A stretch of DNA of 64,000 nucleotides. Origin: Asticcacaulis sp. SL142 (lineage in GTDB: Bacteria; Pseudomonadota; Alphaproteobacteria; Caulobacterales; Caulobacteraceae). The notes beneath the pieces were generated by a model. It was given only the letters and a program-made list of their open reading frames with translations, was not told the DNA's origin and did no database searches. The position numbers and the translations under genes are program-made. Positions 38,291-52,630 of this stretch are shown in pieces (within the stretch, counting starts at the first letter, position 1; every line of letters begins with the position of its first letter). The stretch covers positions 2,071,501-2,135,500 of the forward strand of contig NZ_CP113061.1 in the NCBI RefSeq assembly GCF_026625745.1, given 5' to 3'.

Positions 38291-38683
38291 GTGTGTAGTT
38301 CCGCGCTTTCCCGAGCACTGAGTGGTGTTATCATCGCCGTTATCGATGATGATGAATCCGTGCGTGAAGCGCTGATCAGTCTGCTGCGATCCTTCGGTTA
38401 TGCCACGCTGTCGTTCGCCTCGGCCGAGCAATTCCTTAGCGACGCCCGGCATGAGGCCATCGGCCTTGTCATCACCGACGTTCAGATGCCCGGCATGGGG
38501 GGTCTGGGGTTACAGGATCAGATGCGCACCCAGGGCCCGAATATTCCGCGCCTGTTTATGACCGCCTATCCGGAAAAAGACATTGAGGCCCGCGCCCTGG
38601 CGGGCGGGGCCTCCTGTTTCCTGCGTAAGCCATTTGAGGCTGAAACGCTGATCGCCTGCGTCGAGGCAGCCCTTAAGGGTTAA
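38291..38683 (+). CDS. Receiver-only response regulator
   Basis: A 130-residue single receiver domain with all key residues: IDDDE, phospho-Asp in LVITDVQMPG, Thr in LFMTAYPE, and Lys in LRKPF. It resembles the receiver of FixJ-type proteins. The start is a GTG with a distant AAGGG; it is not fully certain. It follows the FixJ-like gene by 109 bases and may compete for phosphate from the same kinase. The last four bases overlap the metE 3' end. Confidence 0.85.
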   Translation: MCSSALSRALSGVIIAVIDDDESVREALISLLRSFGYATLSFASAEQFLSDARHEAIGLVITDVQMPGMGGLGLQDQMRTQGPNIPRLFMTAYPEKDIEARALAGGASCFLRKPFEAETLIACVEAALKG

Positions 38684-41040
38684 GCCGTTTCGCGCAGTGA
38701 CTTAGCCGCGGCCACCATGTTGACCAGAGCCGGCCTGACCTCATCCCACTTACGGGTTTTCAGGCCGCAGTCGGGATTGACCCAAAGCTGGGCATCATTA
38801 AGCCGTTGCCGCGCCAGTGACATCAACTCGGTCATTTCACTCACCTCCGGTACGCGCGGACTATGGATGTCATAGACGCCCGGCCCGATCTCATTTGGAT
38901 ACTTTTTCGATTTGAAGACATCGAGCAGTTCCATCTTGGAGCGTGATGTCTCAATAGAAATCACATCAGCGTCCATGTTCGCCACGGCGTCCATGATGTC
39001 GTTGAACTCCGAATAGCACATGTGGGTGTGGATCTGGGTGTCATTGGATACGCCAGTCGAGCACAACCGAAACGCCTCGACCGCCCAGTCGAGATAGGCT
39101 TGCCAGTCGCCGCGCCGCAGCGGCAAACCTTCGCGCAGGGCCGCTTCATCGATCTGGATCATCTTAGCCCCTGCGTTTTCAAGGTCAGACACCTCATCGC
39201 GGATGGCGAGCGCAATCTGGCGGCAAGTTTCCGAGCGCGGCTGATCATCACGCACAAACGACCAATTGAGGATGGTCACCGGCCCGGTCAGCATCCCCTT
39301 GACCGGCCTCTCAGTGAGGCTTTGGGCATATTGCCACCATGAAACCGTCATCGGTTCAGGTCGCGAGACATCACCATACAGCACCGGCGGGCGCACGCAA
39401 CGCGAACCATAGGACTGCACCCAGCCGTGTTTGGTGAAGGCAAAGCCGGATAACTGCTCACCGAAATACTGCACCATGTCGTTGCGCTCGAACTCGCCGT
39501 GGACCAGCACATCAAGCCCGATGTCTTCCTGCCAGCGGATGGCGCGTTCAGTCTCGGCTTTCAGGAAGGCGTCGTATTGCGAATCGTCGATGGCACCCTT
39601 GGCGTGATCCGAACGGGCCTTGCGCACCTCAGAGGTTTGCGGGAACGAGCCGATAGTGGTGGTAGGAAAGGCGGGCAGGTTAAACGCCTGACGTTGCAGG
39701 TCGGCGCGAATGGCAAAGGCATGTTTGCGCTGAGCCTGATCTGGCGTCACGGCTTTGAGACGCGCCTTAACCGCCGCATCATGGACCTTGGGCGAGGCGG
39801 CGCGGGCCGCGGCGGCCTCTGCCGAGGCGGTCAGTTCGGTGGCCACATCACCACCCGACAGCGCTTTGGACATTACCGACAATTCGTCCATTTTTTGCAG
39901 CGAAAAGGCCAGCCAGGATTTGACATCCTCATCGAGCCCTTTGTTTTGTCGCGCATTTGAATCCGAAAACCGCTGCACGCTTTTCGGAATGCGCGCAGTC
40001 TCCAGATTAAGGTCGATCGGCACATGCAGCAGCGAACAGGACGGCGCGATCTGAAGGTTGCCACGGTCGGCGACAATTTTCAGGCGCTCAAGCACGGCGG
40101 GCAGATTGGCGCGCCAGATATTGCGGCCATCGATGACACCCAGCGAAAGGGTAAGCGTCTTTGGTGCAGCCTGCACAACCGCTTCAAGCTGCTCCGGTGC
40201 GCGCACCAGATCGACATGCAGACCCGCGACCGGCAAGTTCACCGCCGTCTCCAGATTATCGCCCAACCCACCGAAATAACTGGCCAGCATTATGCTGATT
40301 TGCGGCACCTCTTTGGCGAATGCTGCGTAGGTTTTTTGCAGGGCGGCCGTCGTTTCAGCATCCCCGTCCAGCACCAGTACCGGCTCATCGATCTGCACCC
40401 AGTCAGCGCCAGCGTCCGCCAGCGCTTTCAGCACCTCGACATAGACCGGGATCAGGCGCTCAATCAACGACAGGGGGTTCGCCAGCCCCTTGCCCAGCTT
40501 AAGGAAGGTGACCGGCCCGACCAGAACCGGACGGGTGTGATAACCCAGCGCCTTGGCCTCTAAAAACTCTTCGACGGCTTTTAACGATGTCAGTTTGAAT
40601 GTCTGATCATCGTTAAATTCCGGCACCATGTAGTGATAATTGGTGTCGAACCATTTGGTCATTTCCTGCGCCGACACGCCATGCCCGTTGCCATGAACAT
40701 GGCCATGTTCGCAGGTCTCGACGTGACCCGCCTGACTGCCGCGCGCCATCGCGAAATAGGTATCGAGGTCAACCGCCTCGCCATAAATCGCCGGAATCGC
40801 CCCGACCATCAGGCTGGTGTCCAGCACCTGATCATATAAGGAAAAATCATTCGACGGGATGATATCGACCCCGCGCGCCTTTTGCCGCGCCCAGTTGACG
40901 GCACGCAAATCTTTGGCGGTTTGCAGGAGAGTTGCTTGGTCGGACTTGCCCGACCAGTAAGATTCGAGGGCGAATTTAAGTTCGCGCTTAAGGCCGATAC
41001 GCGGGGTGCCTAAAGATGCGACGGGGATAATAGATGACAC
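38680..41040 (-). CDS. metE: Cobalamin-independent methionine synthase, with repeat-encoded insert
   Basis: A 786-residue MetE that methylates homocysteine from methyltetrahydrofolate without B12. The GTG at 41040 follows AGAGG and gives the normal N-terminus (SSIIPVASLGTPRIGLKREL, 20 residues quoted). The open frame continues to 41175 but that part is the riboswitch. The zinc ligands are in HTHMCYSEF and NPDCGLKTRKW. Two oddities make it longer than E. coli MetE (753): a His-rich stretch at about 105-121 (CEHGHVHGNGHG), and residues 349-364 encoded by an inverted copy of a dispersed palindromic repeat, still in frame. Expression should be off when cobalamin is present. Confidence 0.95.
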   Translation of the reverse strand: MSSIIPVASLGTPRIGLKRELKFALESYWSGKSDQATLLQTAKDLRAVNWARQKARGVDIIPSNDFSLYDQVLDTSLMVGAIPAIYGEAVDLDTYFAMARGSQAGHVETCEHGHVHGNGHGVSAQEMTKWFDTNYHYMVPEFNDDQTFKLTSLKAVEEFLEAKALGYHTRPVLVGPVTFLKLGKGLANPLSLIERLIPVYVEVLKALADAGADWVQIDEPVLVLDGDAETTAALQKTYAAFAKEVPQISIMLASYFGGLGDNLETAVNLPVAGLHVDLVRAPEQLEAVVQAAPKTLTLSLGVIDGRNIWRANLPAVLERLKIVADRGNLQIAPSCSLLHVPIDLNLETARIPKSVQRFSDSNARQNKGLDEDVKSWLAFSLQKMDELSVMSKALSGGDVATELTASAEAAAARAASPKVHDAAVKARLKAVTPDQAQRKHAFAIRADLQRQAFNLPAFPTTTIGSFPQTSEVRKARSDHAKGAIDDSQYDAFLKAETERAIRWQEDIGLDVLVHGEFERNDMVQYFGEQLSGFAFTKHGWVQSYGSRCVRPPVLYGDVSRPEPMTVSWWQYAQSLTERPVKGMLTGPVTILNWSFVRDDQPRSETCRQIALAIRDEVSDLENAGAKMIQIDEAALREGLPLRRGDWQAYLDWAVEAFRLCSTGVSNDTQIHTHMCYSEFNDIMDAVANMDADVISIETSRSKMELLDVFKSKKYPNEIGPGVYDIHSPRVPEVSEMTELMSLARQRLNDAQLWVNPDCGLKTRKWDEVRPALVNMVAAAKSLRETA
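39950..39994 (-). repeat. Dispersed palindromic repeat inside metE, copy 4 (in frame)
   Basis: These 45 bases, read on the minus strand, are identical to the intergenic copy at 52525-52569 except for one base. They lie within metE and are translated as ARIPKSVQRFSDSNAR, joining the two halves of the protein without a frameshift. Since 45 is a multiple of three and the surrounding protein matches the MetE family again right after, it looks like an in-frame insertion in a surface region. Confidence 0.9.
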
Positions 41041-41150
41041 GGTAACCTCTGTGCTGTGAGCGTAAGGTTCTGGCCATGCGCCTGCGCGCCCGCAGCGGCT
41101 GCGGGCTAAGGACGCACCGCCTGAGCCCTCCGCTCCGGGTGAAATATGAG

Positions 41151-41314
41151 GTCGCTGGCAGGTCTCCTGGCTCACGGGTCAGGGCTTAAGTCCGCCTTCT
41201 CAGGGGCATAAGTCCCCCAATGGCATATGAACCTTAGCTTACCGCGCACAGTTGCGGGGGCAGCGCCGGAGTTTAACCGGCTTCCCTCTTAGCCGCGCCG
41301 GTTTGGCAACCGAC
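41151..41314 (-). promoter_or_regulatory. Cobalamin riboswitch upstream of metE
   Basis: On the minus strand the leader holds GGGAAGCCGGUUAAACUCCG, then GCUGCCCCCGCAACUGUG, and the B12 box AGCCAGGAGACCUGCC, the conserved core of cobalamin riboswitches. GUCG and CGAC at the ends can form the closing helix. Between it and the GTG start is a strong 8-bp GC hairpin (41088-41095/41099-41106) without a U-tract, so control may be by occlusion of the ribosome site rather than termination. The gene codes the B12-independent enzyme, so repression by B12 is expected. Confidence 0.93.
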
Positions 41315-41364
41315 GCAGAACCACGACCCGCACAGCTATAGGGTGCGCATTCTGAAGAGTCAAT

Positions 41365-52507: not shown

Positions 52508-52524
52508 GGGCTAATCCTCAAGAG

Positions 52525-52569
52525 CGCATTCCGAAAAGTGTGCAGCGGTTTTCGGATTCAAATGCGCGT
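52525..52569 (+). repeat. Dispersed palindromic repeat, copy 3
   Basis: A 45-bp imperfect palindrome (GCGCATTCCGAAAAGTGTGC on the left, ending TTCGGATTCAAATGCGCG). It differs at one base from the inverted copy inside metE. It is just upstream of the DUF1993 start. Confidence 0.9.
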
Positions 52570-52630
52570 TAAAACAATGAACAATCTGATGCTCATGAGG
52601 TGCGCCCTAACCGTGCCGTTTTCAAGGCCT

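Follow-up and report, generated by a model that had tools for sequence, protein, structure and literature searches.

In a 2024 review (PMC10969869), Rickettsia palindromic elements (RPEs) are described as lying in frame within proteins, and CIR is called strictly intergenic. A second source (PMC2229807) presents CIR/Bru-RS, found in Caulobacter, Brucella, and other alphaproteobacteria, as units of approximately 103 to 110 bp with two long stem-loops, a linker, and GANTC in a stem-loop, and states that CIR is never intragenic and has stops in all six frames. A 2013 survey (PMC3733652) reported GTAG and CGTC REPs that lie in frame within proteins in several free-living bacteria, some of them alphaproteobacteria, and Cod-2 of Corynebacterium diphtheriae, a small repeat that turns up within a variety of genes and is read in more than one frame, was likened to the RPE by its authors in 2008 (PMC2267715). 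Because REPs and Cod-2 have been reported inside genes, in-gene palindromes as such are of a known kind. Here, a 57-bp segment within metE of Asticcacaulis sp. SL142 was analyzed, using a window of 64,000 nucleotides (NZ_CP113061.1, positions 2,071,501 to 2,135,500), the numbering of which is followed throughout. Asticcacaulis is a free-living genus. The segment is very probably a copy of a dispersed, nonautonomous palindromic repeat that was inserted in frame and is presumably tolerated as a loop.

The insertion-bearing metE gene (38680 to 41040, minus strand) encodes a cobalamin-independent methionine synthase of 786 amino acids with a GTG start, which gave 1144 and 1105 bits against two full-length MetE models, both above the cut-off, and matched the solved homologs 1u1h and 4ztx, among others. 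DNA alignment with eight empty congeneric sites placed the insertion at 39938 to 39994 on the minus strand, with ends that are ambiguous by one or two bases; it comprises 19 codons (residues 350 to 368, RIPKSVQRFSDSNARQNKG). The extra bases read GCGCATTCC...ACAAAACAAAGG, are flanked by GAGACTGC and GCTCGAT, and consist of a 44-bp imperfect palindrome and a 13-bp A-rich tail. The hairpin part, defined by sequence and fold, lies at 39950 to 39994 (minus strand) and contains a GATTC (GANTC) site. A preliminary description, made from the sequence alone, had claimed that a palindromic repeat lies in frame within metE and that the frame resumes after it, and this holds, with ARIPKS starting at residue 349 and LDEDVK at residue 369.

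Full-length MetE is encoded in 15 of the 24 other congeneric genomes searched, and exactly these 19 residues are absent from all 15; the remaining nine had no match or only shorter ones, which covered approximately 320 residues within the C-terminal half or fell on repeat-like stretches. A gap was likewise found at the site in all 80 retained loci more distant than the congeners, and in 4ztx and 1u1h. Because the segment is missing from this whole range of homologs, it was gained in the lineage of this species. The converse, an ancestral segment that every relative has since lost, is refuted by parsimony; the underlying DNA is moreover that of a dispersed repeat, nothing was found in favor of such a loss, and its probability is negligible.

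The reverse complement of 39950 to 39994 is identical to window positions 52524 to 52568 at 44 of 45 bases; this match to an intergenic repeat had been described before with a start at 52525, which is offset by one base. Using a 141-base query, at least 38 places of the family (E ≤ 0.001, query site included) were found in the 3.7-Mb single-contig genome, with 40 of 53 first-look candidates scored. The best nonself copy of the metE repeat gave an E value of 1.3e-17, and the similarity of the metE segment to the other copies is not due to chance. Read in a single orientation, the copies have in common AGCGCATTCCGAAAAGTGTGAAGCGGTTTTCGGA-nnn-AAATGCGCG and then an A-rich tail, and the stem of the family hairpin is long, bipartite, and internally bulged. 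A single hairpin of −22.7 kcal/mol is predicted for the metE copy (z = −4.2, equaled by 0 of 200 shuffles), and the intergenic copy forms the same hairpin at −21.0 kcal/mol (z = −4.1). Against a family consensus of 55 positions, written by hand, the two copies agree at 50 and 54 positions, respectively. As both are so close to the consensus, their near identity, although real, is weak evidence for the recent event that had been read from it, and does not establish either copy as the source from which the other arose. Similar repeats were present in 9 of 72,556 plasmid records, namely, four from Bartonella, three from Asticcacaulis, and one each from Ensifer and Ochrobactrum. On plasmid pASEM-1 of A. 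excentricus (locus L376, 3001 to 3057), the coding sequence of the beta-galactosidase gene galB stops 2 bases into a repeat; galB was rejected as an in-gene case, as the gene merely ends there.

Besides metE, six independent in-frame insertions of the family were identified, with empty orthologous sites in every case, giving at least seven in-gene insertions spread over four species of one genus. One of the six is in the same genome as metE, so that 2 of its 38 copies are within proteins, and five are in congeners, which agrees with the expectation of other copies inside genes. In the screen, profiles of four translated frames (f1, f2, r0, and r1) were run against 25 congeneric genomes; among the matches listed, 80 loci were retrieved, and 40 open frames from 37 loci, plus 10 frames of the own genome, were scanned against Pfam. 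With this coverage, seven is a minimum, and the preference for one frame reported below may be biased by the search. In what follows, G000 is the genome of the window, other G numbers are congeneric Asticcacaulis genomes, and L numbers are individual loci.

In G000, the repeat is spanned by the PF13449 match of a phytase-like protein; here, 57 bases are extra compared with the four nearest orthologs, the insertion is absent from the six relatives aligned, and it is read in a frame other than that of metE (AHSEKCEAVFGKKCALEF). G001 carries three insertions, of 60 bp in a flavin adenine dinucleotide (FAD) amine oxidase of the LkcE type, 102 bp in a PanE-like reductase, and 102 bp in a glutathione S-transferase (GST), and each of these sites is empty in all seven relatives aligned. 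In a major facilitator superfamily (MFS) transporter of G016, 54 bp were inserted with the element antisense, the site being empty in the six relatives aligned, a seventh having failed. In the same set of comparisons, L365 gave an empty site string and L364 was left out. The weakest of the seven cases is the permease of G020, because its 102 bp follow MKPD at the N terminus and the element contains a GTG in frame that might act as a start; two relatives read MKPDLKLIL, and G008 (L300), which differs in sequence at the site, was not counted as empty. L300 has another in-frame stretch (MKPDHLNLPPRLRGGRTAKRWEG...), 5′ of the stretch encoding KPILSIGSP, where the G020 permease carries the repeat. 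It resembles a second, unrelated palindromic family, so this spot was possibly hit twice. At approximately 2499 to 2602 in L335 (G013), two tandem repeat copies lie in one open frame just 5′ of a conserved membrane protein, and a single copy is found at the corresponding place in G001 (L349).

A number of candidates were rejected because the repeat may precede the true start. In isocitrate lyase (L240), the repeat is at 94 to 110 and the PDB match starts at 137; the family match starts 3′ of the repeat in TilS (L237), MnmC (L231 and L232), alpha-amylase (L259), glutaminase (L260), glutathione peroxidase (L327), a low-molecular-weight phosphatase (L336), a permease (L317), and a Mur ligase (L321). 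N-terminal extensions are possible at these loci. Long open frames without a Pfam match, such as the 851-amino-acid frame of L251, were rejected as probably spurious.

The inserts in the PanE-like reductase, GST, and permease are complete units, consisting of a first hairpin, an A-rich linker, and a second hairpin ending in GCTCTG; all three add exactly 102 bases, and in the metE frame they translate as ERIPKSVQRFSESNARQDKKPEHDSDPTGSGCALVP and similar peptides. The same two-hairpin architecture is seen in intergenic copy L023, and the start of a second arm follows 5 of the 38 own copies, most of which are one-armed. Single-hairpin units are 54 to 60 bp in length. With a strict pattern for the 5′ end, TA, with which CIR/Bru-RS units terminate, was found at the 5′ terminus of 17 of the 38 own copies.

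The metE frame is used by five of the seven insertions, and f1 and r0 by one each. Among 36 own copies (the 38 less two for which a neighboring copy was picked, and including the two in-gene copies), the frames are open in 25 (f2), 30 (f1), 31 (r0), 18 (r1), 19 (r2), and 12 (f0) cases. Judged from these counts, openness by itself does not explain the preference, although the screen covered only f1, f2, r0, and r1 and the numbers are small. GANTC, the site of CcrM, is present in six of the seven in-gene copies versus 11 of the same 36 own copies, and in both arms of all three in-gene two-hairpin units; no GANTC was found in the two-hairpin intergenic copy L023 or in the Ochrobactrum and Ensifer copies. 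Both the GANTC counts and the shared frame could be taken as signs that the insertion is adaptive, with the RIPKS... loop or the GANTC site giving a new function or regulation. However, the numbers are small, no relationship links the seven genes with one another, and disorder is predicted for the loop; this explanation is considered very unlikely.

The intergenic copy (52522 to 52577, plus strand) differs in its occurrence among all four relatives examined, the site being empty in G008 and G020, whereas a variant with a longer hairpin occupies it in G005 and G014. In the latter two (L368 and L367, respectively), the first hairpin of the repeat at the site orthologous to 52524 is extended by 20 bases (TTTTGGCTCCGCCGAACTGCG). 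Because presence and absence vary at this site, the family appears to have moved within the genus. Related variants of the arm or loop were observed in own copies L017, L033, L035, L038, L040, L042, and L044.

A search for the Y1 transposase (RAYT; Y1_Tnp, PF01797), the one transposase family searched, gave no matches in G000, and the control search with PF01797 was positive in Caulobacter vibrioides and 4 others of 14. The empty sites of all three 102-bp insertions (L309, L310, and L297) have CTG at the 3′ junction (CTCTGGTGCC, AACTGGTTCC, and ATCTGAAAC). This matches the GCTCTG end of the element and could reflect either a target rule or a joint formed through shared sequence. If the latter, the repeat may have been copied from a copy already present, by recombination or template switching via a short shared target sequence and not by transposition, which would also fit the lack of a clear target-site duplication and of a Y1_Tnp match. 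However, the copies are scattered over unrelated sites and their 5′ ends are consistent, for which an enzyme recognizing the hairpin offers the easier explanation, and copying of this kind is regarded as possible but rather doubtful.

A cobalamin riboswitch lies 5′ of metE, outside the repeat (41140 to 41340, minus strand; Rfam RF00174, 118.7 bits, model matched end to end), and a metH family match above the cut-off was found elsewhere in the genome, so that MetE would be needed solely without B12. The metH matches (G000:C1:1609873-1614172) are split over two open frames of 369 and 891 amino acids, as is likewise the case in G005, G013, and G020, and form a single long frame in G008 and G014. 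Given metH and the riboswitch, metE could be decaying while MetH replaces it, and the insertion could be inactivating or neutral. Against this, the frame of metE is open, its dN/dS (ratio of nonsynonymous to synonymous substitution rates) is low and equal to that of the insert-free orthologs, its branch shows no excess dN, the riboswitch is complete, and the frame was kept likewise in six other genes; decay of metE is thus an unlikely explanation. In a predicted model, residues 350 to 366 have a pLDDT (predicted local distance difference test score) below 50 and lie in the N-terminal barrel, between one of its strands and a helix, as would be expected of a structural site open to insertion, and the inserted segment is predicted to be disordered within an otherwise well-folded enzyme. 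Indirectly, dN/dS and the model suggest that MetE with the insert may still work.

The favored explanation, insertion of a tolerated repeat, can then be set out as follows. A copy of the repeat entered an intact metE after this species split from the sampled relatives. Because the copy lies on the coding strand, has a frame that stays open across the hairpin and the tail (RIPKSVQRFSDSNARQNK), and is divisible by three in length, MetE gained, without a frame break, a hydrophilic 19-residue loop at the barrel site described above, flanked by the strand and the helix. Presumably, copies that disrupt a protein are lost and those with open frames in loops, linkers, and termini persist, selection thereby acting as a filter, and we infer that the repeat is moved by an enzyme supplied in trans. 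Several points weigh against this explanation. No target-site duplication could be defined at the insertions, and as no Y1 transposase was found either, mobility is deduced solely from presence and absence. A second MetE segment, residues 106 to 119, likewise has a pLDDT below 50 in the predicted model. Finally, with metH in the genome, the cell may not need metE as long as B12 is present, and a recent loss of MetE function would not show in dN/dS.

The preliminary description had likened the metE repeat to the RPEs, and the empty sites in relatives, the in-frame position, and the further in-gene copies all support this likeness; what was overstated is how far such palindromes are tied to Rickettsia, as REPs and Cod-2 are known. 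Like the RPEs, the palindromes are found both in intergenic regions and in frame in unrelated conserved proteins, with the gene kept open and a similar coding size of the insert (PMC2229807, PMC10969869). The resemblance concerns behavior. The RPEs measure approximately 100 to 150 bp, whereas one-hairpin units here measure 54 to 60 bp and two-hairpin units 102 bp, with only the 2 of 38 genome copies noted above shown to be within proteins, and the RPE host is obligately intracellular, unlike this free-living member of the Caulobacteraceae. Short palindromes that are mainly intergenic, with some in frame in proteins, also characterize the GTAG and CGTC REPs, in which the stem measures 5 to 13 bp and GTAG or CGTC stands at the terminus; the CGTC type has 8- to 9-bp stems, 4- to 5-base loops, and a CCA tail (PMC3733652). 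In contrast, the family described here has the longer, bulged two-part stem and no GTAG tag, and its 3′ end is GCGCG followed by TT, TC, AC, or others, with GCGCGTC in only part of the copies. In stem and loop, the own copies also depart from the CGTC type, and the short, tagged stem of the RAYT-linked REPs was not seen among them. Cod-2 is similar as a small repeat within coding sequences (PMC2267715), but it comes from an unrelated organism and is a genic family, whereas the present one is mainly intergenic.

The complete unit resembles the published description of CIR/Bru-RS in its two hairpins and linker, its length of approximately 102 bp, and, in the three in-gene units, GANTC; related copies are carried by Ochrobactrum, Ensifer, and Bartonella plasmids. 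It differs in that most copies here are single-armed, 25 of 36 are without GANTC, and some are inside genes, while CIR is strictly intergenic according to both accounts (PMC2229807, PMC10969869). The earlier remark that no such insertion was known for this repeat family fits these two reviews, and in mostly open-access literature we found no report of the family inside genes and no occurrence of "RIPKSV." What is new is that a CIR/Bru-RS-like family, held in print to be strictly intergenic, enters the proteins of free-living bacteria repeatedly. As a tentative proposal, such a widespread palindrome could be a protein-invading element of free-living alphaproteobacteria, its 102-bp unit being preadapted to this role by a length divisible by three and by one sense frame that encodes a charged, probably disordered peptide (RIPKSV.RFS.SNAR...), and it would also carry CcrM sites into coding sequence.

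Palindromes within open genes are known above all from Rickettsia, whose decaying genomes offer an easy explanation. Here, seven such insertions, each matched by a clean empty site and together spanning four species of a free-living, culturable genus, make insertion, tolerance, and the effect on the enzyme directly testable, with the insert-free orthologs as ready controls for the in-gene repeats. They also correct the printed claim that repeats of this kind are never intragenic, and they carry a warning for annotation, as RIPKSV-type segments in alphaproteobacterial proteins may derive from repeats.
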